From a virus: 23,655 nt of DNA. Each line of letters begins with the position of its first letter. The stretch's first letter is position 1. Shown piece after piece: positions 4,356-17,323 of this stretch. The stretch is taken from IMG/VR virus record IMGVR_UViG_3300028025_003286, positions 1-23,655 of that record. One strand, 5' to 3'. The notes under the pieces are model-generated. The model was given only the letters and a program-made list of their open reading frames with translations. It was not told the origin of the DNA and did not search any database. A program made the position numbers and the translations under genes.

Positions 4356-6275
4356 ATGGCTGTAAAAACAAAAATTCAAGTACGTAGGGACACTGCCGCT
4401 AACTGGACTTCAACTAACCCTGTTTTAGCACAAGGTGAAATTGGCTATGTAATTAGCGGAACTAACGCCACCTACTTCAAAATTGGCGATGGAACTACTG
4501 CTTGGGAATCCCTTGCTTTTCAAAACACTACTGGACCTACAGGAGCCACTGGTTCTACAGGTGCCACAGGTGCAGGTTTTAGCGGTGTAACATCAACTTC
4601 GTCAGTTGCTATCGGTACAGGTTCTAAGACTTTTGCTGTAGCCAGCACAGGTGCGTTTGTGCTTGGAGACCGAGTTAGAGTAATTAACACTGCAACCAAC
4701 TGGGTTGAAGGAACAATCACCGCCCTAACTTCAAACACCTCAATCACTGTTAACGTAGACCAAACTTCAGGTACAGGAACTTTAAGTTCTTGGACTGTAA
4801 GCATTGCAGGTCTCCCAGGAACTGTAGGTCAAACTGTAACAGGTCCTACAGGTCTAGGTTACTCTGGTGTTACATCTACTTCTTCTGTGGCTATTTCTAC
4901 AGGCTCTAAGGCGTTTACTGTTACTAGTACTGGGGCTTACGCAGTCGGTACTCGTGTTCGTGCCGCACACACTTCTACCCCAACTAACTATGTTGAAGGT
5001 GTAATCACTGCGTTAGTTGCAGATACTTCTATTACTGTTAACGCTGATGCTATTGGCGGTTCTGGTACACAGACTGCATGGACTTTCTCTGTTGCAGGTC
5101 AACCTGGCCCTACTGGTGCGACTGGCTCTACTGGTGCGACTGGCTCTACTGGTGCGACTGGTGCACAGGGTGCTACTGGGCCGCAGGGCTCTACAGGCTC
5201 TACTGGTGCTGCTGGTACTAATGGAACTAACGGTGCCGATGGAGTTGGTTATGATGGCGTAACTTCTACCACATCAATTTCGGTGAGCACAGGTTCCAAA
5301 GCAATTACTGTAAACAAGGTTGGTGCGTATGCACTTGGCACTAGAGTTCGTGTAGCCAATACTGCTACCCCAACTAACTTTGTTGAAGGTATTATCACTA
5401 ACATTGCCAGCCTAGTCGTTACCGTTAACGCAGATGCTATTGGTGGTACAGGAACTTTCACAGCATGGACTTTTTCTGTTGCAGGTAGCGTAGGTGCTAC
5501 TGGAGCGACTGGTGCCACTGGTGCTCAAGGCACTACAGGTGCCACAGGGGCTACTGGCTCTACTGGTGCTGCGGGTACTAACGGTGTTGGTTATGACGGA
5601 GTAACCTCTAGTTCCTCAGTGTCAATTAGCACAGGCTCTAAAAACTTTACCTTAAACAAGGTAGGTGCCTTTGCTGTTGGTACTAGAGTGCGTCTAGCAA
5701 ACTCTTCTTCTCCAGCAAACTTTGTTGAAGGAGTCATCACTGGAATCGCCTCTTTAGTTATTACCGTTAACGTGGATGCTACTGGCGGTTCTGGAACTTA
5801 CTCTTCTTGGACAGTTTCTGCTGCTGGAGTTAACGCTCTCGGTGCCATCCCGACAGGGATTAGAGTCCCTTACGCAACATCCTCAAACACAATCGCTTAT
5901 TCTGAAATCTCGTATCAAAGTGCTTATGGAGAGGTACTGACAAGAAACGGCTCAACCGTGGAATGGCAATACCCTCATCCGTACAAGATTCAAGTAGGTA
6001 AGCAAACATCAGTACTTGCTGGCGGTGCTACCCATGCGTCTATGACTGTTATTTTCCCTGTGCCATTTGACTATGTCCCTGTTGTAACCGTTACTCCAAC
6101 AGGAACAAGCACTCCTACTTCAGTAACTATAAGCAGCGTTACAACTGATAGTTTTGTGGCATACATCTTTGCGGGTACTGGAACCAATAACTCTGTTTGG
6201 GGAGCGTCAACTACCGCTAGAACTATTCACTGGTCTGCTGTTCAATACGCCTATAACGGTGCTGAGTCTGCCTAA
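4356..6275 (+). CDS. Collagen-like modular fibre protein with Mtd_N-like N-terminus
   Basis: 639 residues with a strong AGGAGAT site 7 nt before the ATG. Residues 1-57 (IQVRRDTAANWTS, LAQGEIGY, FKIGDGTTAWESL) match the major tropism determinant N-terminal type of fibre attachment domain. Four copies of an ~80-residue module follow at about 74-152, 167-248, 297-378 and 411-490. The consensus is GVTST(S/T)S at the start, TGSK, RVR, (Y/F)VEG.IT, VN.D, and a closing W(T).S.AG. The modules are joined by Gly-X-Y strings (GATGSTGATG) of varying length. Residues 543-639 form a different terminal domain (QVGKQTSVLAGGA, VPFDYVPVVTVTP) ending in NGAESA. This suggests a long trimeric fibre of beads on a collagen-like string. 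The stop overlaps the start of the next gene as TAATG. Confidence 0.82.
   Translation: MAVKTKIQVRRDTAANWTSTNPVLAQGEIGYVISGTNATYFKIGDGTTAWESLAFQNTTGPTGATGSTGATGAGFSGVTSTSSVAIGTGSKTFAVASTGAFVLGDRVRVINTATNWVEGTITALTSNTSITVNVDQTSGTGTLSSWTVSIAGLPGTVGQTVTGPTGLGYSGVTSTSSVAISTGSKAFTVTSTGAYAVGTRVRAAHTSTPTNYVEGVITALVADTSITVNADAIGGSGTQTAWTFSVAGQPGPTGATGSTGATGSTGATGAQGATGPQGSTGSTGAAGTNGTNGADGVGYDGVTSTTSISVSTGSKAITVNKVGAYALGTRVRVANTATPTNFVEGIITNIASLVVTVNADAIGGTGTFTAWTFSVAGSVGATGATGATGAQGTTGATGATGSTGAAGTNGVGYDGVTSSSSVSISTGSKNFTLNKVGAFAVGTRVRLANSSSPANFVEGVITGIASLVITVNVDATGGSGTYSSWTVSAAGVNALGAIPTGIRVPYATSSNTIAYSEISYQSAYGEVLTRNGSTVEWQYPHPYKIQVGKQTSVLAGGATHASMTVIFPVPFDYVPVVTVTPTGTSTPTSVTISSVTTDSFVAYIFAGTGTNNSVWGASTTARTIHWSAVQYAYNGAESA
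5113..5165 (+). repeat. 18-bp in-frame tandem repeat in the collagen-like linker
   Basis: The unit CTGGTGCGACTGGCTCTA occurs at 5113-5130 and 5131-5148, and its first half recurs from 5149. It codes for Gly-Ala-Thr-Gly-Ser-Thr steps between the second and third modules. Copy-number change would alter linker length in frame. Confidence 0.85.
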
Positions 6276-7443: not shown

Positions 7444-7758
7444 ATGGCAAGCGAAGCATGGCAGAAGAAGTCTGGTAAGAACGCTAAAGGCGGTCTTAAT
7501 GAAAAGGGACGTAAGTCCTATGAGAGAGCAAACCCTGGCTCAGATTTGAAGGCTCCAGTTAAATCTGGCGATAACCCTAGACGTGCTTCATTCCTTGCGA
7601 GGATGGGTGGTAACCCTGGGCCAGAGCGTAAGCCTAACGGTGAGCCTACAAGACTACTGTTGTCTCTACAGGCGTGGGGTGCCTCTTCTAAGGCTGATGC
7701 TAAGAAGAAGGCTGCGGCTATGTCTAAGCGTCTTGACGCTAAGAAAGGTAAAAAATAA
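7444..7758 (+). CDS. DUF6321-like small basic protein
   Basis: 104 residues. The core AWQKKSGKNAKGGLNEKGR, then SYERANPGSDLKAPV, RRASFLARMGG, GPERKPNGEPTRLLLSLQAW is the pattern of the DUF6321 family, which occurs in many environmental and T4-like phages and has no established function. A lysine-rich tail (KKKAAAMSKRLDAKKGKK) is added at the C-terminus, as in its neighbours. It starts 2 nt after the upstream stop and ends in a TAATG overlap. Family assignment is by eye from the G-G-L-N-E-K-G-R and R-x-S-F-x-A-R-M-G-G motifs, which are distinctive. Confidence 0.8.
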   Translation: MASEAWQKKSGKNAKGGLNEKGRKSYERANPGSDLKAPVKSGDNPRRASFLARMGGNPGPERKPNGEPTRLLLSLQAWGASSKADAKKKAAAMSKRLDAKKGKK

Positions 7759-8561
7759 TGGCGGATACTATTCTTTCAGTAGCATACGACATGATTAAGC
7801 CTCATCTAAAACCTGAGCACGACAAATGGGTGCTAAACAATGGTGGTTCACCTGAGGCTATTGCTCTGGGTAACCAGGCACATAACGCTGCTCATGGTGA
7901 CTCTGAAGTTATTGCTGCAAAAAACCTTTCAAATGCTGCTTTGGATAAGGTAAGCAAAATTAGGGAAACTGCACCTAATAGCCCAGAACATGAGGCTGCG
8001 ATTGACGCTTATCAACCTCTTAATGATGCCCATGGGAAGTTGTATGCAAAGAAGTTTGCCGAACATTTAGGCAATCTAATTGACCAGCATATTGCCACCG
8101 CTCCACAACGTGAAGCACAAGAACGTGTTGCTAAAGCAACTGAAGAAGGCAAGAATCAGCCTATCGTTAAAAAGCCTAACGGTAAATTTGTTGCGGGATG
8201 TTTGAAGTGCCAAGGGTCTGGTGTAATCCCTCGTTTTGGAAATACCGCTGATGGTATGTGCTTTGACTGTAAAGGCGTTGGCTTTAGTAACAAAAGTCAG
8301 GAACATGACTCTGCTGAAGAACTCCGTAAACTGATGGTGGACACTAGAGTTGCTCGTGCCCAAGGTATGCCTGTTAGAAACACCACTTCTACACCAGCGG
8401 TTGCTGCTCCTGCACCTTCAGAGAGACCTAAAGGCTTTACAAACAAGTTCCCAGGAACCTGTGTTGGATGTGGTACTCGTGTAGGTAAAGGCGAGGGTAT
8501 GACCTCTAAAGGTCCTTCCGACAATTGGGAAGTTAGATGTGTGGGGTGCCACCATGGCTAA
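7758..8561 (+). CDS. Protein with DnaJ-type zinc finger and second zinc ribbon
   Basis: 267 residues, the only mid-size protein in the small-gene chain. Residues 1-130 are mostly helical and Ala/His-rich (ALGNQAHNAAHGD; ALDKVSKIRE) with no recognised family. Residues 148-175 contain CLKCQGSG and CFDCKGVGF (Cys148, 151, 168, 171), the CxxCxGxG pair of DnaJ-type zinc fingers. A Pro/Ala linker (about 208-225) leads to a second four-Cys site, CVGC and CVGCHHG (Cys235, 238, 261, 264). There is no J-domain HPD motif, so it is not a DnaJ co-chaperone in full. Roles in protein or nucleic-acid binding are possible. The stop overlaps the next start by 8 nt. Confidence 0.75.
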   Translation: MADTILSVAYDMIKPHLKPEHDKWVLNNGGSPEAIALGNQAHNAAHGDSEVIAAKNLSNAALDKVSKIRETAPNSPEHEAAIDAYQPLNDAHGKLYAKKFAEHLGNLIDQHIATAPQREAQERVAKATEEGKNQPIVKKPNGKFVAGCLKCQGSGVIPRFGNTADGMCFDCKGVGFSNKSQEHDSAEELRKLMVDTRVARAQGMPVRNTTSTPAVAAPAPSERPKGFTNKFPGTCVGCGTRVGKGEGMTSKGPSDNWEVRCVGCHHG

Positions 8562-8859
8562 GAAACTTAAACCAACTAATGCTGTTAAAGGTGCTGCTAC
8601 TGAATACGCTAGAAGAGCAGTTACAAACCGTAGCAGCCAGAAGAAACTTCTAAAAGATACCTCAGAACTACCTGCATTACGTCAGTTGAAAATTGACGCA
8701 GCAGAGCAGGACATTAACGCTGCCCGTAATGCCGTAAAGAGTTCTGTGCAGTTTGCTTCTAGGGCAGGGGCTAGTACCCCACAGATTGGTGTCGCTTATT
8801 ACAAGGGGGCTATCAAAGGTGCGGTTAAGGGTGCTGTCCAGAACATAAGAGGTAAATAA
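8554..8859 (+). CDS. Basic helical small protein, unknown function
   Basis: 101 residues from the ATG at 8554. I chose this over the ATG at 8539 because MAKKLK matches the M-A-K starts of its neighbours and gives the same ATGGCTAA 8-nt overlap with the upstream stop that is seen at two other junctions in the window. The sequence is basic and mostly helix-forming (ALRQLKIDAAEQDINAARNAV; YYKGAIKGAVKGAVQNIRGK). The C-terminal G-A-x-K-G-A-V-K-G-A-V stretch could be an amphipathic helix. No family is recognised. Confidence 0.7.
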   Translation: MAKKLKPTNAVKGAATEYARRAVTNRSSQKKLLKDTSELPALRQLKIDAAEQDINAARNAVKSSVQFASRAGASTPQIGVAYYKGAIKGAVKGAVQNIRGK

Positions 8860-9083
8860 TGGCTAAAGTACGCACTAAAGATGGTGTTGGTCACGTTGTG
8901 ACTAAGAAGAAGTCTGACAAAGGTATCGGTAAAAAAGGCGATGTTATTGTTGACCATACAGCCACTAAAAAGGGTAAGTACGATAAAATGAACTTAACCA
9001 AAGTCGCTGGTTCTAAGACTGTTAAAGACGGTGTTAAAGCAACTCGTAAGTGGCATAAAGATAACCCACAGAAGAAGAAGTAA
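8859..9083 (+). CDS. Lysine-rich small protein, unknown function
   Basis: 74 residues, 21 of them Lys. Start and stop both lie in TAATG overlaps. It contains short strand-like pieces (GHVVTKKK, GDVIVDHTATKKG) and a helix near the end (VKDGVKATRKWHKDN), and finishes in a run of lysines. No known family is recognised. Composition suggests nucleic-acid contact, but this is inference only. Confidence 0.7.
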   Translation: MAKVRTKDGVGHVVTKKKSDKGIGKKGDVIVDHTATKKGKYDKMNLTKVAGSKTVKDGVKATRKWHKDNPQKKK

Positions 9084-9247
9084 TGGCTAAAGAAAAGAAG
9101 GTCTGGGAGAAGCCAGACCCAACTAAGAAAGACAAACCTCTATCTAAGAGTCAGAAGTCTTCTGCTAAGGCTCGTGCTAAGGCTGCTGGTCGCCCATACC
9201 CTAATCTAGTGGATAACATGGCAGCGGCTAAAAAGAAAAAGAAGTAA
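9083..9247 (+). CDS. 54-aa lysine-rich protein with GRPYPNLVDNMAA motif
   Basis: A short ORF of 54 residues, start and stop in TAATG overlaps. It begins MAKEKKVWEKPDP, has an alanine/lysine helix (SKSQKSSAKARAKAAGR) and the motif RPYPNLVDNMAA, then five lysines. The A-K-A-A-G-R-P-Y-P-N-L-V-D-N-M-A-A core is, as I recall, repeated in small proteins of environmental and actinobacterial phages; its function is unknown. About 30% of residues are Lys. Confidence 0.75.
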   Translation: MAKEKKVWEKPDPTKKDKPLSKSQKSSAKARAKAAGRPYPNLVDNMAAAKKKKK

Positions 9248-11553: not shown

Positions 11554-13134
11554 ATGACCTATGGTCGTCCTGGAGTCTATGTAAACGAGACTCTAATCCC
11601 TGCACCTATTGAAGCATCTGGTTCGGCTGACGCCGCTGGTGCTATTGTCGGTGCTTTCCCACAAGGTCCATCCACAGTAACTCTTGTTACTTCTTGGTTT
11701 GACTTCACACAGCAGTTCGGTGGCTACAACGCTTCATACCCAGCAACAATTGGTGTAAACCAGTTCTTTGCTAACGGTGGTTCAGAGTTGTATGTTCGCC
11801 GTGTGCTTGGTTCTGGTGCAGCCGTTGCATCTGTAACTATCCCTAAGTCTGGCGGTAACCTTGGAACTGCTTCGTCAAAAAACAAGGGTGCAGATAGCAA
11901 CAACTTCCGTATCCAGATTACTGGCACTTCAGTAGCAAACTATTACAACTTAACTGTTTTGAAGGAAGTAGCGTCTACCTACCTAGGCACCAACAACGCT
12001 GACGGAAATAACGATGTTATTGTTGAGCAGTTTACTAACGTAGTATTCAACAGTGCTACTTCTGCTGACTACGCTCAGACTGTAGTTAACGCTACTTCAA
12101 AGTACATTACTTTGGCATTGTCTTCTACAGGTACTCCAACCACTCAGGAAATTACTGCTGTTCTACCATTGACTGGTGGTGCTGATGGTTCTGCCCCTGT
12201 AGTTGGTGATTACACTGGAGTTTTTGCTACCGATGGTTCTTCAGAGTTTGACGCTATCGACCGCCCATTGGTTGTCTTCGCACCAAACATCCATGAGAAG
12301 TTTGTTGTAGACGGAAACGCTTCTGCAGACGCTCACTTGGCTTCAGTTCATGACGCACTAATTGCGTGGGCTAACTCAGGTAGCGGTTTTGCAATCATTG
12401 ACACCGCACCAAGCCTAACTGTCCCACAGGCTATTGCATACATCACTGCTCGTACCGCCTCATCTCGTGCCGCTGGTTACTACCCTCACTACTACGTTCA
12501 GGACCCTATTGCTCGCAGTGCCCAGGCACTTCGCAAGACTGCCCCTGCAGGTGCTATTGCTGGTATCTACTTGTCAACTGACAAGACTTACGGCCCATTC
12601 AAATCTCCAGCAGGTGTTTCCGCAAACATTCGTACCGCAGTTTCTTTGGAACGTGCCTTTACTCCAGCAGACCTAGACTCACTAAACACTGGTACTTACG
12701 TATCTGGTGGTAGCACTGTCTATGGTGATGCTGTGAACGCTATCCGCAACCTTCCAGGTGCTGGTGTAGTTGTTATGGGTGCACGTACTCTTCTACAAGA
12801 TGGTACTGCAAACAAGTATGTGAGCACTCGTCGTTCTTTGATTTACATTACAAAGCAACTACAGAACCTTACACAGTTCGCTGTATTCAACAACAACAAC
12901 GCAAAGTTGTGGTCTCAACTTCGTACTGTAGTCGGGGTGTTCCTAAACGAATACCGTAACCAAGGTGGACTGCGTGGAAACTCACCTGCCGAGGCTTACT
13001 ACGTAAAGATAGACAGCCAAATCAATACTCCAGAGTCTATTGCTCAGGGTGTAGTAAACATTCAGGTTGGTGTTGCTCTTGAGTACCCTGCTGAATTTGT
13101 AGTTATCAACCTAAGCCAGATTACTGGCAACTAG
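11554..13134 (+). CDS. Contractile tail sheath protein
   Basis: 526 residues, with a strong AAGGAG 5 nt before the ATG. The N-terminus YGRPGVYVNETLIPAPI and the segment DFTQQFGGY, then QFFANGGSELYVRRV are typical of contractile sheath proteins. The C-terminal domain carries the usual late pattern: LIYITKQLQNLTQFAVFNNNNAKLWSQLR, FLNEYRNQGGLRG, AYYVKID and the closing strands VVNIQVGVALEYPAEFVVINLSQ. Sheath subunits form the outer cylinder that contracts to drive the tube into the host. The intergenic gap and strong ribosome site fit high expression. This gene alone makes the phage a myovirus. Confidence 0.95.
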   Translation: MTYGRPGVYVNETLIPAPIEASGSADAAGAIVGAFPQGPSTVTLVTSWFDFTQQFGGYNASYPATIGVNQFFANGGSELYVRRVLGSGAAVASVTIPKSGGNLGTASSKNKGADSNNFRIQITGTSVANYYNLTVLKEVASTYLGTNNADGNNDVIVEQFTNVVFNSATSADYAQTVVNATSKYITLALSSTGTPTTQEITAVLPLTGGADGSAPVVGDYTGVFATDGSSEFDAIDRPLVVFAPNIHEKFVVDGNASADAHLASVHDALIAWANSGSGFAIIDTAPSLTVPQAIAYITARTASSRAAGYYPHYYVQDPIARSAQALRKTAPAGAIAGIYLSTDKTYGPFKSPAGVSANIRTAVSLERAFTPADLDSLNTGTYVSGGSTVYGDAVNAIRNLPGAGVVVMGARTLLQDGTANKYVSTRRSLIYITKQLQNLTQFAVFNNNNAKLWSQLRTVVGVFLNEYRNQGGLRGNSPAEAYYVKIDSQINTPESIAQGVVNIQVGVALEYPAEFVVINLSQITGN

Positions 13135-13151: not shown

Positions 13152-13808
13152 ATGGCTACTATATTAAACAACCGCTCTAACATTGCAACTGACCCGATTA
13201 GAAACTTTAGGTTTCTAGTCACTTTCAAACCACACGTTACAACAGGTGGTAACACAGGTGCTAACGCCACAAACCCTTGGTCTCAGGCAGTTGCATCAAT
13301 TCCATTTGGGTTTACTTCGGTATCAGGTATGGCTGTGTCTACTGACTCAATCCCTTACCGTGAAGGTGGTTACAACACCACTGTTCACCAGATTCCAGGC
13401 CAAACTGCATTTGCTCCACTAACAATGCAGCGTGGTGTGCTTCTAGGTACAGACGAAAACTGGAAGTGGATGAAGCAACTGTTCCAAACAGTTCAAGGAA
13501 CTGTTACACGTACTGCGGCTTCAGACTTCCGTGTTGACATTGACATCGATGTTTTAAGTCATCCACTAGCGTCTACCGCAACAGCAGGAAACTCTGCGAG
13601 TACCTACAACGACCACGTTTCAATGCGTTTCAAGGTGTACAACGCTTGGATTACCTCACTAGCATACTCAGACCTAAACGCAGGTGACAACGCAATCTTG
13701 GTTGAGCAGATGTCTCTGACTCACGAAGGATTCGAAGTTATCTGGGGTAAGGACCTAACTGACGCTGGTTCAGCAGCAGTACGTGAATCTGAGTACGAAG
13801 CATACTAA
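13152..13808 (+). CDS. Tail tube protein (T4 gp19 type)
   Basis: 218 residues, with AAAGGAGAA just upstream. It contains the gp19-family pattern: DPIRNFRFLVTF at the N-terminus, FTSVSGMAVSTDSIPYREGGYN, then TMQRGVLLGTDENWKWM and late YNAWITSLAYSDLNAGDNAILVEQMSLTHEGFEVI. The subunit forms hexameric rings stacked inside the sheath. It is somewhat longer than T4 gp19, with an inserted Gly/Thr/Asn-rich loop after residue 30 (TTGGNTGANATN). It follows the sheath gene by 17 nt, the usual order. Confidence 0.93.
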   Translation: MATILNNRSNIATDPIRNFRFLVTFKPHVTTGGNTGANATNPWSQAVASIPFGFTSVSGMAVSTDSIPYREGGYNTTVHQIPGQTAFAPLTMQRGVLLGTDENWKWMKQLFQTVQGTVTRTAASDFRVDIDIDVLSHPLASTATAGNSASTYNDHVSMRFKVYNAWITSLAYSDLNAGDNAILVEQMSLTHEGFEVIWGKDLTDAGSAAVRESEYEAY

Positions 13809-13835: not shown

Positions 13836-14642
13836 ATGGCAGAACAAACCCTGAGAGCAGCAGATGACGCTAACAAAGCAAATGATTTGCTTGCTCAAGC
13901 ACTATCCGAACCACAAACCGTAGAAGCACCAAAAATTGTTTCTCCTACAGACATTCTTGTCGACCTCCCTGGAGGTATCGTAATCGACGGGGAGGTTGTC
14001 AAGACTGCTCTTGTAAGAGAAATAAATGGTAGAGACGAAGAAGCATTAATCCGAGCAGAATCATCAGGAAAAATGTTTTCAATAGTTGTAAACCGTGCAA
14101 CAGTTTCTTTAGGCGACACTAAAGCCACAGACGAATTACTTGATAGCCTACTAGTTGGAGACAGAGATGCCATCCTTCTAGGAATTTATCGTGCAACATT
14201 TGGTGAAACAGCAGAACTATCTGGGTACTGTAACGGTTGCTCTGAATTTAAACCTGTAGAAATTGACATTCTAAAAGACATTAAAAGCAGAGTTTTACCT
14301 GACGCTCAGGAAACAAACTTTATCGTTAAAGGTAAGAACAAAGAGTTTTTGGTGACTTTACCAACAGGTAAGACACAGAAAAAACTCTTGGCTAACCCAG
14401 AAGCAAACATTGCAGAGTCTTTAACAACTTTGCTAGAACAAACCGTGTTAGAAATTGACGGCAGACCCGTCTTTAGTAAAACACAAATCCAAGCATTAGG
14501 ACTTGTCGACAGACGTGCTATTGCTGACGCTATCGCAGACCGAAACCCTGGCCCACTATTTGACCCAATAAATGTAACTTGCCCAGATTGTGAGAGTGAA
14601 GTGCAGGTGCCGATTAGCCTCGGTACTTTGTTTCGCCTCTAA
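13836..14642 (+). CDS. T4_baseplate-like protein in tail-assembly-chaperone position
   Basis: 268 residues, AAGGAG 6 nt before the ATG. The layout matches the T4_baseplate (gp26-type) family, often found between tube and tape measure: VDLPGG near the N-terminus, ALVREINGRDEEAL, LLVGDRDAILLGIYRATFG, two zinc-type Cys pairs (Cys132/135 in CNGC; Cys249/252 in CPDC), and LPTGKTQKKL. The segment QALGLVDRRAIADAIADRNPGP precedes the second Cys pair. By position it is expected to act as the chaperone that guides tape measure assembly. Its 3' end overlaps an open +1-frame segment that looks like a frameshift extension. A baseplate-hub role like T4 gp26 is an alternative. Confidence 0.75.
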   Translation: MAEQTLRAADDANKANDLLAQALSEPQTVEAPKIVSPTDILVDLPGGIVIDGEVVKTALVREINGRDEEALIRAESSGKMFSIVVNRATVSLGDTKATDELLDSLLVGDRDAILLGIYRATFGETAELSGYCNGCSEFKPVEIDILKDIKSRVLPDAQETNFIVKGKNKEFLVTLPTGKTQKKLLANPEANIAESLTTLLEQTVLEIDGRPVFSKTQIQALGLVDRRAIADAIADRNPGPLFDPINVTCPDCESEVQVPISLGTLFRL

Positions 14643-14802
14643 TTTAATAAGTTATGAAGAATTAATTTACTCTTGGGCCGCATTGGCTAAGTTGTATAAA
14701 GGTTGGACTCTAACGGAAATCCGTGAGATGTCTAGCCGTGAAAGGTTGAACTGGTTTGAAATAGCCAGAACAAGCGGAAAGGTGGTGAAGGATAATGGCT
14801 AA
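14635..14802 (+). CDS. +1-frame extension of the tail assembly chaperone (probable frameshift product)
   Basis: 55 residues open in the +1 frame from inside the end of the chaperone gene to TAA 14800-14802. The segment EELIYSWAALAKLYKGWTL, then EIREMSSRERLNWFEIA resembles the helical T-part of G/GT tail-assembly chaperones. It has no good start codon of its own: a GTG at 14590 lies inside the chaperone gene without an obvious ribosome site. A +1 slip of tRNA-Phe from TTT (14631-14633) to TTC (14632-14634) would fuse it to residue 266, giving about 321 residues. A second possible site is CTC-TAA at 14637-14642. The TAA overlaps the tape measure start by 8 nt. Confidence 0.65.
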   Translation, partial: ASNLISYEELIYSWAALAKLYKGWTLTEIREMSSRERLNWFEIARTSGKVVKDNG

Positions 14803-17323
14803 AGACGAAATCGTTGGCGACATTGAAGGGGCTAATAACGCCCTATCCAAAATGACACGCCTTGTTAAATCTCTTGTTGGGGACTTTGCAAAACTAGGTA
14901 AGGGCATCACTGGGGCTGTACAGCCTATGGGTAACGGCGGGTTTGGTCAACGAGGTTTAGGTGTAGGTTCAGGTAACCGCCTATCTCAAGCGTTGGGCGG
15001 ATTCAGTTTCATGCCTCCAACAGGAAACGTTGGGGCTACTTGGGACTGGACCAAGAAGATGAACCTTGGTATGGGTACCCTCCAAGGACTAACTAAAATG
15101 GCCACAGGCGTTGTTGCTGGTGGTTTCATGGCTATGCCTGACGTTGAAACAACCATAACTAGGGCATCAGGTTTTTATGGGGCTAACCTTATGCAGGGGG
15201 GTTCTGCTGGGGGTAGGGCAGGAATAGCAAACGCCACCTTTAATGGTATGAAAGGCGGTATTACAGGCCTTGGAATGGACTCTGCTGCCGCAGCAATTTT
15301 TTCTGGTATGGGAGTTAGCACTAATGCCACAGGAGTTAACGCTGGGCAATTTCAAAACTTACTTACATCAACTAAAAATGCTGCAAAATATTTAAACATA
15401 GATAACGCTACTGCTGCTCAGGCATTAGGTGGCTTAACTAGCGGTGCAACCTCTAGTTCCTTGATGCGTAACTTTGGTATGTACACAACAGACCCTATAA
15501 CAGGTAAGCGTCTTTCACAGGGCGAAATCTTTTCTCAGTTAAATGAGCGTATGACTGGTGGGCAAAAACTTACTGTGCAAGAATTACAGACTTCTATGCA
15601 GGGTGGTGCTTTAGAGCAAAACCTTAAAAACTCAGGCTTAGATGCTACTCAACAGCGTATGGCTTATCAATACATGATTGATGCTGCTGGCGGCAAGAAC
15701 ATGGACTTGAGCGACGATAAACTAATGGCACAACTTCAGAAAAGTGCTGGCGATAACCCTATGCAGTCTGAGTACAGTGCTATCAGTTCTCAAACAAAAA
15801 CTATGGAAACTGCAACAGACGCCTACATTGAAGGTATGAAAAAAGCCGCTGTAGTAATCGACCAGTTTAACGGTGCTATGCAAGGTTTCTTAAAGACCCC
15901 TGCAGGACAAGCGATGGCTCAACTAAATGCTGGAACTAGTTTAGGTATTAAAGACCCTACAATCGCTGGTGGTCTTACTGCACTTGGAGGTATAGGTGGC
16001 GGTCTAGGCTCAATTGGTGGGGCACTATTAACTAACGCATTACTAACAAAAAGTTTAAGAGGGGCAGGAGTTCTTGGCCCTAAAGGCGGCGGTGCAGTTG
16101 CTGCTGGTGGTGGTCGCTACCGTGACCCTAAGACAGGCAGATATACCAAGGCACCTGCGGCTAAAGGTGGCGGTGGATTTAAAGGTAGAGGTTTTGGTCT
16201 TGGTTTGCTTGCAAGTTTGGGTGGAGGATTTGTTGGAGACTTAGTTGCTGGTGATTCTGCACAAGGTAGTACCCAAAGTAAAATTGGTAATGCTATTGGT
16301 ACTGCCGCATCTTGGGGTGGTATGGGTGCAATGGTTGGAAGCATTATTCCAGGTGTGGGCACAGGAATTGGTGCTGCGATTGGAGCGACTGCTGGGGCAA
16401 TCTACGGTGGGTTTAGTGGTGATGGTGGTACCAGCAATGGTGGTGGAAGTAACAGTGCGGGGGCTGGAGCAGGGGCAGCGTTTAAACTTATTCACCCTGT
16501 AGGTAAAGCAAGAATGGTTTGTGGCTACGGTGTTTACGATGACTTACACCCTAGAGGTCACTGGGCGGTTGACTGGTCTGCCGCTGAAGGCACAGGAATT
16601 ATGGCTGCTGCCGCTGGTAAAGTAATTTTCACTGGTGGTCGTGCAGCCAACACTATGGGAACTAGTGACCGCAGTTATGGTCTACACGTAAAAGTTGACC
16701 ACGGAAATGGGTATGTGACCAACTACGCTCACGTAAGTGGTTTTGACGTTAGTGTTGGACAGCAAGTTACCCAAGGACAGCAAATCGCTAGAGTCGGTAA
16801 CACAGGTTACTCTGAAGCCGCTCACCTTCACTTCGAACTTTGGAAAGGTGGGACAAGAGTTGACCCATCACCATTCTTAGGTGCAAACTACGCAAAAAAC
16901 TCAGGAGTTAAAGGTGGAAGCAGTACTTCATCTAACTCTGTTCGTGGTATGGGTGGCTCTGCTGACGCTGGGCTTTTAGGTTTCTCAACAGGTGCATCAG
17001 GTAATGGTACTAAAATCCCTTCATCGTATAAAGGTGCCGCTATTGGTAAGTCAGTTGTTGCTGGTGGCGGTAGAACTAGTGCATCTTCTGGTGGTAGCGG
17101 AACATTGCTGGGTAAAGGAACTTCTACAGGTGCAAACCTAGGTGGAGGTATGGGAACTACTGGTGGAGGAGATGGACCTAGTAGTGGTGGCGGTGGCGGA
17201 AACAATGTCACTATAAACGTATCTGTAGCACAGGCTTCAGAATCTGAAGCAAGACGCTTTGCAAAACTTATTAAAGAGTATCTAGATAACGATACATTAA
17301 CTTCAACAATGGGGAGACTATAA
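14795..17323 (+). CDS. Tape measure protein with M23 peptidase domain
   Basis: 842 residues, start in an ATGGCTAA overlap with the +1-frame extension. The N-terminal half is Gly/Ala/Met/Gln-rich and helical (for example FSQLNERMTGGQKLTVQEL; DAYIEGMKKAAVVIDQFNGAM). Three hydrophobic glycine-rich stretches lie at about 390-416, 465-485 and 500-540, the last with a glycine-zipper look. Residues 565-697 are a LytM/M23 endopeptidase: His589 and Asp593 in HWAVDW, His646 in NYAH, and HLHFEL with His677 and His679. All zinc ligands appear present, so it is probably active against peptidoglycan. A Gly/Ser-rich region follows, then a helical tail. The protein sets tail length and probably helps open the cell wall during injection. 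Confidence 0.92.
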   Translation: MAKDEIVGDIEGANNALSKMTRLVKSLVGDFAKLGKGITGAVQPMGNGGFGQRGLGVGSGNRLSQALGGFSFMPPTGNVGATWDWTKKMNLGMGTLQGLTKMATGVVAGGFMAMPDVETTITRASGFYGANLMQGGSAGGRAGIANATFNGMKGGITGLGMDSAAAAIFSGMGVSTNATGVNAGQFQNLLTSTKNAAKYLNIDNATAAQALGGLTSGATSSSLMRNFGMYTTDPITGKRLSQGEIFSQLNERMTGGQKLTVQELQTSMQGGALEQNLKNSGLDATQQRMAYQYMIDAAGGKNMDLSDDKLMAQLQKSAGDNPMQSEYSAISSQTKTMETATDAYIEGMKKAAVVIDQFNGAMQGFLKTPAGQAMAQLNAGTSLGIKDPTIAGGLTALGGIGGGLGSIGGALLTNALLTKSLRGAGVLGPKGGGAVAAGGGRYRDPKTGRYTKAPAAKGGGGFKGRGFGLGLLASLGGGFVGDLVAGDSAQGSTQSKIGNAIGTAASWGGMGAMVGSIIPGVGTGIGAAIGATAGAIYGGFSGDGGTSNGGGSNSAGAGAGAAFKLIHPVGKARMVCGYGVYDDLHPRGHWAVDWSAAEGTGIMAAAAGKVIFTGGRAANTMGTSDRSYGLHVKVDHGNGYVTNYAHVSGFDVSVGQQVTQGQQIARVGNTGYSEAAHLHFELWKGGTRVDPSPFLGANYAKNSGVKGGSSTSSNSVRGMGGSADAGLLGFSTGASGNGTKIPSSYKGAAIGKSVVAGGGRTSASSGGSGTLLGKGTSTGANLGGGMGTTGGGDGPSSGGGGGNNVTINVSVAQASESEARRFAKLIKEYLDNDTLTSTMGRL

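Follow-up and report, generated by a model that had tools for sequence, protein, structure and literature searches.

A predicted programmed +1 frameshift at a conserved UUU-C site in a T4_baseplate (PF12322) tail gene

The window analyzed here is the whole 23,655-base virus record IMGVR_UViG_3300028025_003286 from IMG/VR, which carries a contractile-tail gene cluster. An open reading frame (ORF) in this cluster, located at 13836–14642 on the plus strand, encodes a 268-amino-acid (aa) protein and overlaps a short coding segment in the +1 frame. The best explanation for this arrangement, and one in which we have high confidence, is a programmed +1 frameshift at UUU-C (14631–14634) that gives a G/GT pair of tail-assembly chaperones. 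The predicted slip site on the plus strand consists of the P-site codon for F266 (UUU; TTT at 14631–14633) and the C at 14634, the first base of the CGC codon (14634–14636) that would occupy the A site in the 0 frame. Translation of the short (G) form ends at the TAA at 14640–14642. The +1 frame is already open upstream and runs to a stop at 14800–14802, encoding ...NLISYEELIYSWAALAKLYKGWTLTEIREMSSRERLNWFEIARTSGKVVKDNG. The part predicted to be added by the shift, here called the T part (ASNLISYEELIYSWAALAKLYKGWTLTEIREMSSRERLNWFEIARTSGKVVKDNG; 14635–14802 on the plus strand, stop included), was aligned in 51 relatives, and the peptide past the 0-frame stop is 53 aa long and helical-looking. 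The ORF, the overlap, the coordinates and F266 are all as given by an earlier reading of the sequence alone (the sequence-only reading). Because so short an open frame could arise by chance in one genome, proof must be comparative.

Relatives were drawn from three scans of IMG/VR, one scan of bacterial genome contigs, and phage records, and were clustered below 80% nucleotide identity to give 86 representatives, whose proteins are down to ∼28% identical. The junctions examined come from IMG/VR (L002–L092 and L098–L176), from five Streptomyces phages (L008–L012) and from four bacterial-genome loci (L093–L096). Many loci are metagenomic, and isolated phages show the same arrangement. TTT-C and an open +1 frame are kept in every junction from all three sources, at the same position in the protein. 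In the alignment of relatives that the sequence-only reading had proposed as a check, the overlap and the TTT-C are conserved in all 86 representatives, wobble base included, and nowhere else near the junction are four successive bases invariant. The codon after TTT is CGN in 60 representatives, CAR in 18, CTN in 7 and CCA in 1, indicating that CGN is preferred but not required. Leu codons occupy the E site in nearly all representatives (TTG in 52), and the 0-frame stop (TAG in 36, TAA in 32, TGA in 18) is found 2–9 codons from TTT.

Representatives on the tree are not fully independent, and the test that allows for their relatedness is a parsimony count, in which the third base of the slip codon underwent 0 changes, compared with 10–24 at 13 other conserved two-fold codons. 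In six high-GC loci (L096, L108, L113, L119, L129 and L159), across the gene and the following ORF, Phe is encoded by TTC in 156 of 156 cases elsewhere and by TTT at the site. The +1 shift at TTT-C put forward in the sequence-only reading is supported by this invariance and by the lack of third-base changes. At the sequence level, conservation of the site, of the frame and of both protein parts is directly supported, as is homology of the T part with T4 gp51, which is described below.

The +1 segment also behaves as protein-coding sequence. Past the 0-frame stop, the ratio of nonsynonymous to synonymous differences (pN/pS) among 30 independent pairs is 0.21 in the +1 frame, versus 1.04 and 1.62 in the other two frames. 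This segment is under purifying selection, and the +1 frame of relatives encodes a related peptide (L..W..L....GWTL.EI..LS.RER.NWLE). A lack of conservation of the +1-frame protein, which the sequence-only reading had named as evidence that would count against it, was not observed. Among the representatives there is no conserved start for the T segment. GTG and TTG codons occur at positions that are not conserved, and 45 of 86 representatives have no ATG, GTG or TTG ahead of the first conserved helix, in agreement with the earlier remark that the segment has no good start codon. The GTG at 14590, listed as the start of the +1 ORF, is a mechanical choice of the ORF listing. In 56 of 86 representatives, the +1 frame is closed by a stop no more than 27 nucleotides (nt) upstream of TTT, and therefore the shift is confined to a few codons around TTT-C.

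GenBank records either carry short separate ORFs with inconsistent starts over the T segment or have none annotated. Separate genes are annotated over the same TTT-C overlap as LuckySocke gp91, GiJojo gp83 and BRock gp135. We read these start calls as annotation artifacts because they are inconsistent in position over the same overlap. Relatives in which the segment is a separate gene, which the sequence-only reading had named as evidence that would count against it, appear in this GenBank annotation.

Pairing of the P-site tRNA suggests how the shift could proceed. tRNA-Phe with anticodon GAA forms a wobble pair on UUU and pairs perfectly on UUC. In the proposed mechanism, the majority of ribosomes would stop at 14642 and release G (268 aa). 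In a minority, the peptidyl-tRNA-Phe would move from UUU to UUC, one base on, with perfect re-pairing. Reading would then continue as ...GTLF-ASNLISYEEL... to 14802, and the resulting G and T fusion, the GT protein, would be 321 aa long. If the lambda G/GT proteins are a guide, the tape measure protein, whose gene comes next, would be coated by many copies of G and few of GT, and the task of the helical T part would be to bring in subunits of the tail tube. The G/GT logic, already invoked in the sequence-only reading, is supported by the gene position, the conserved overlap and the low pN/pS. From these data we infer that slippage occurs, as well as its direction (+1 or −2), its rate, the chaperone function and the binding partners.

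The assignment of the upstream protein to the T4_baseplate family was sound. G matches PF12322 with 39.3 bits, above the Pfam cut-off of 24.5 (E 7.2e-10), and its BFVD matches are T4-like baseplate hub assembly proteins. AlphaFold2 models were made of the 0-frame protein and of a close T4-like relative of gp51. We read the order of elements in the first model (pLDDT 90.8) as two similar halves, each with a strand pair, helices and a CxxC hairpin; the CxxC knuckles, one per half, are C132/C135 and C249/C252. Both CxxC pairs (window 14226–14592) may together form one shared zinc site. No direct sequence relatives of G were found in the PDB. When the model was compared by Foldseek with 350,542 PDB chains, the HK97 tail assembly chaperone 2ob9 ranked first (probability 0.80, E 0.1). 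VIA-align superimposed 90 of 104 residues on 2ob9 with a Z of 7.0, which is moderate (below 8), and the next match had a Z of 3.7. The HK97 family is the one expected from the gene position, and this model-based match is taken as support for a chaperone fold rather than proof of it.

The T part is related to the C-terminus of T4 gp51, as judged from profile comparisons. T4 gp26 and gp51 (L177: 7803–8429 on the minus strand and 8480–9229 on the plus strand) are both PF12322 proteins and are paralogues, with gp51 longer by ∼48 C-terminal residues. The extra C-terminus forms three helices in the gp51 model, for which VIA-align gave no informative match (no row above Z 4.9). A profile of the +1 segment alone matches gp51 weakly (best E 0.096), and the bridge between the two is a segment found in cyanophages. 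In relatives of cyanophage S-SM2 gp26 (L204 3160–3370, L206–L285), the −1 frame past the stop encodes a homologous T segment, YHKYSLTEIENMIPWERDIYV. A profile of this segment matches the KVP40 −1 ORF (E 1.7e-12) and gp51 C-termini (best E 3e-6), and it reaches the +1 segments of the window clade (best E 0.001). In profile–profile comparisons, the cyanophage T segment matches the gp51 C-terminus at 96.5% with a score of 47.7 (best of 100 shuffles, 17.2), gp51 matches the window T part with 21.3 (14.9), and the cyanophage and window T parts match with 22.0 (15.9). All three pairings exceed their controls of 100 column shuffles each.

The T_TTT_TTC motif is invariant in 65 of 65 representatives, nearly all of them relatives of S-SM2 gp26. 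This is a predicted and apparently undescribed −1 programmed frameshift in cyanophages of the T4 superfamily. KVP40 ORF 0327 (L205 3300–3490) follows gp26 and is annotated as a separate gene with similarity to the C-terminus of T4 gp51. Its frame is −1 relative to gp26, downstream of GAT TTT TTC GTA TAA, so that it probably represents the T part of gp26 made by frameshifting. Elsewhere in the family, the T part is in the +1 frame in SP-15, LIS04, immuto, Mel-JY01, SagM and LR756508, and in the −1 frame in PA5oct, Atu_ph07, RAS14 and the Acidobacteriales metagenome-assembled genome relative L097 (3660–3900), which reads GGT TTT TTT TTG. The frame of the L097 T part indicates that some members of the family shift in one direction and some in the other; L097 as a query gave no matches in viral contigs. 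The +1 T parts of Bacillus SP-15, Listeria LIS04 and Microcystis Mel-JY01 (L197, L198 and L199) follow TTT TTT N rather than only TTT-C, and UUU-U may act as a slip site in some lineages.

The simplest reading of these sequences is that PF12322 proteins are G parts that gain a T part through recoding specific to each lineage, with duplication having taken the place of recoding in T4. Recoding in this reading would be +1 at UUU-C in the window clade and −1 at U_UUU_UUC in cyanophages and KVP40. T4 gp26 and gp51 are apparently a duplicated G/GT pair whose long form is fused in frame. We consider it likely that the whole family consists of tail assembly chaperones made in a short and a long form by such recoding, or in T4 by duplication, with gp26 as the short form and gp51 as the long form. 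The sequence-only reading had suspected that a G part of this kind with a GT-like tail would be a less described arrangement. This understates the case, since the T4_baseplate family as a whole seems to be arranged in this way.

Other explanations for the overlap were weighed against the +1 shift at UUU-C. The downstream ORF could be a small gene in its own right, with a non-ATG start reached by reinitiation or translational coupling. GenBank annotates a short separate ORF in Streptomyces phages, SP-15, immuto, RAS14 and KVP40, and scattered GTG and TTG codons are present; however, the start position is not conserved, many representatives have no candidate before the first helix, and T4 gp51 carries the same segment covalently joined to the same kind of domain. 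A separate gene would also leave the invariant TTT-C and the zero synonymous change at the slip codon unexplained, and we regard it as very unlikely. It appears just as improbable that the T frame is entered by a −2 shift, as in phage Mu (cited in PMC3498833), even though −2 and +1 lead to the same downstream frame. With the E-site codons observed, a tRNA-Phe moved by −2 would face TGT, TAT or TCT and be mismatched at the middle base, whereas +1 yields perfect pairing on UUC. The invariant C after TTT favors +1 because +1 needs this base and −2 does not.

The sequence-only reading offered CTC-TAA, the last sense codon and the stop, as a second candidate slip site. In 51 of 86 representatives the stop comes right after a YTC codon, and +1 sites of the hungry-stop type are found in prfB and phage PSA. 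Yet the last sense codon is highly variable (TTC, CTC, CTA, TTT, GAG, CGT, TAC and others) and the distance of the stop from TTT changes, so that CTC-TAA is refuted as a general mechanism and is scarcely credible for the window. Finally, the overlap could reflect an assembly error or a decayed gene, since a single indel would look alike in one contig. This idea is refuted because 86 divergent representatives, which come from many projects and include isolated phages, share the arrangement, and its probability is negligible.

It could also be that the frameshift is real but its products are baseplate hub assembly factors rather than chaperones of the tape measure and tube. The PF12322 and PHROG names point this way, as does the literature on T4 (PMC3004832), which classes gp26 and gp51 among the chaperones of baseplate hub assembly and describes gp51 as an essential protein that is missing from the virion and whose function is unknown. 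We nevertheless judge this unlikely, given that G lies directly ahead of the tape measure gene and that its fold matches the HK97 tail chaperone. The two views may in fact be one, because T4 gp29 is both a hub protein and the tape measure.

For the G/GT frameshift itself, several points count on the other side. No convincing RNA stimulator was found, the downstream fold having z values of −0.7 to −1.2 versus −0.4 to −0.55 for controls. A Shine-Dalgarno-like stimulator ahead of TTT is present in 22 of 86 representatives and is not conserved. Nor is the A-site codon, CGC in most cases, an obviously rare one. GT production is a prediction, and binding of G and GT to the tape measure protein is likewise our reading. 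To these can be added the moderate structural match to the HK97 chaperone and the filing of gp26 and gp51 under the hub.

Frameshifting of tail chaperone genes has been called conserved in long-tailed phages 'except T4' (PMC5009743). The relationships described here offer a testable explanation for T4, whose gp26 and gp51 share a family with proteins apparently made in two forms by +1 or −1 frameshifting. If PF12322-wide recoding is true, T4 would cease to be an exception, and the essential gp51 would be given a specific role. We found no description of frameshifting in PF12322 genes in the open-access literature. For bacterial viruses, the 86 representatives would amount to a collection of distinct natural +1 sites that all use the tetranucleotide UUU-C. 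Predictions of this motif class have so far come mainly from viruses of eukaryotes, and it has also been proposed for one group of archaeal viruses. Many phage records list short ORFs as genes of their own that probably encode the end of a recoded protein.

By the ORF list and profile matches, the contractile-tail cluster has the order sheath, tube, PF12322 G, T and putative tape measure, all on the plus strand. The tail sheath protein is encoded at 11554–13134 (phrog_23, E 8.1e-46), and a tail tube protein of the gp19 family at 13152–13808 (PF06841, E 4.4e-24), directly upstream of G. The putative tape measure protein (14795–17323, 842 aa) is assigned from its position, and its counterpart is annotated as the tape measure in SP-15, LIS04 and immuto. 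Its candidate start at 14795 overlaps the +1 ORF by 8 nt, and residues 588–691 form an M23 peptidase domain (PF01551, E 5.5e-28). Elsewhere in the window, 4356–6275 encodes a protein of 639 aa that has collagen-like GPTGATGSTGATG repeats and may be a tail fiber, and 7758–8561 encodes a 267-aa protein with a CxxC cluster that weakly resembles the DnaJ zinc-finger repeat (CXXCXGXG).

The lambda-type G/GT frameshift of tail assembly chaperones was reportedly described by Xu, Hendrix and Duda in 2004. As in that system (reviewed in PMC5009743), the second ORF in the window lacks a start of its own. The usual signal there is a −1 heptamer, whereas the window has a predicted +1 site at UUU-C, and G, a T4_baseplate protein, is larger and has two domains and CxxC knuckles. 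T4 gp26 and gp51 share PF12322 with G, and the helical extension at the C-terminus of gp51 is related to the T part, but gp26 and gp51 are two separate genes with no frameshift. The gp26 genes of cyanophage S-SM2 and KVP40 have a PF12322-type G and an out-of-frame T segment ahead of the next large ORF, and differ in that T is in the −1 frame after T_TTT_TTC. Listeria phage PSA provides a case of a programmed +1 shift in a bacteriophage, although it affects unrelated proteins, those of the capsid and tail shaft genes, and occurs on a proline codon (PMC5009743).

With regard to the motif, TTT CGC fits the UUU-then-CGN class in sequence, and slippage at the window site is predicted. This +1 class includes influenza PA-X (UCC_UUU_CGU) and amalgaviruses (PMC3498833). 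Slippage there is from UUU to UUC in the P site, and CGN is also the commonest next codon in the window family. The class is read by eukaryotic ribosomes, however, and the window family also has CAR and CTN as next codons and a Leu codon (mostly TTG) in the E site in place of UCC. In both motif and gene context, the site resembles that of the HF1-group haloviruses HF2 and HSTV-2, for which +1 frameshifting at TTT-CGC was earlier proposed in the tail chaperone gene just ahead of a myovirus tape measure gene (PMC7230728); their hosts are archaeal. In Halorubrum phage HF2 (L289 11264–11400, minus strand), the site reads AAG TTT CGC AGA TAG in an apparently unrelated tail chaperone. No sequence relation was detected between the HF2 chaperone and the window G family, and therefore the motif has apparently been recruited to this role on more than one occasion. 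On these sequences, TTT-CGC in HF2 and in the window family is probably convergent.
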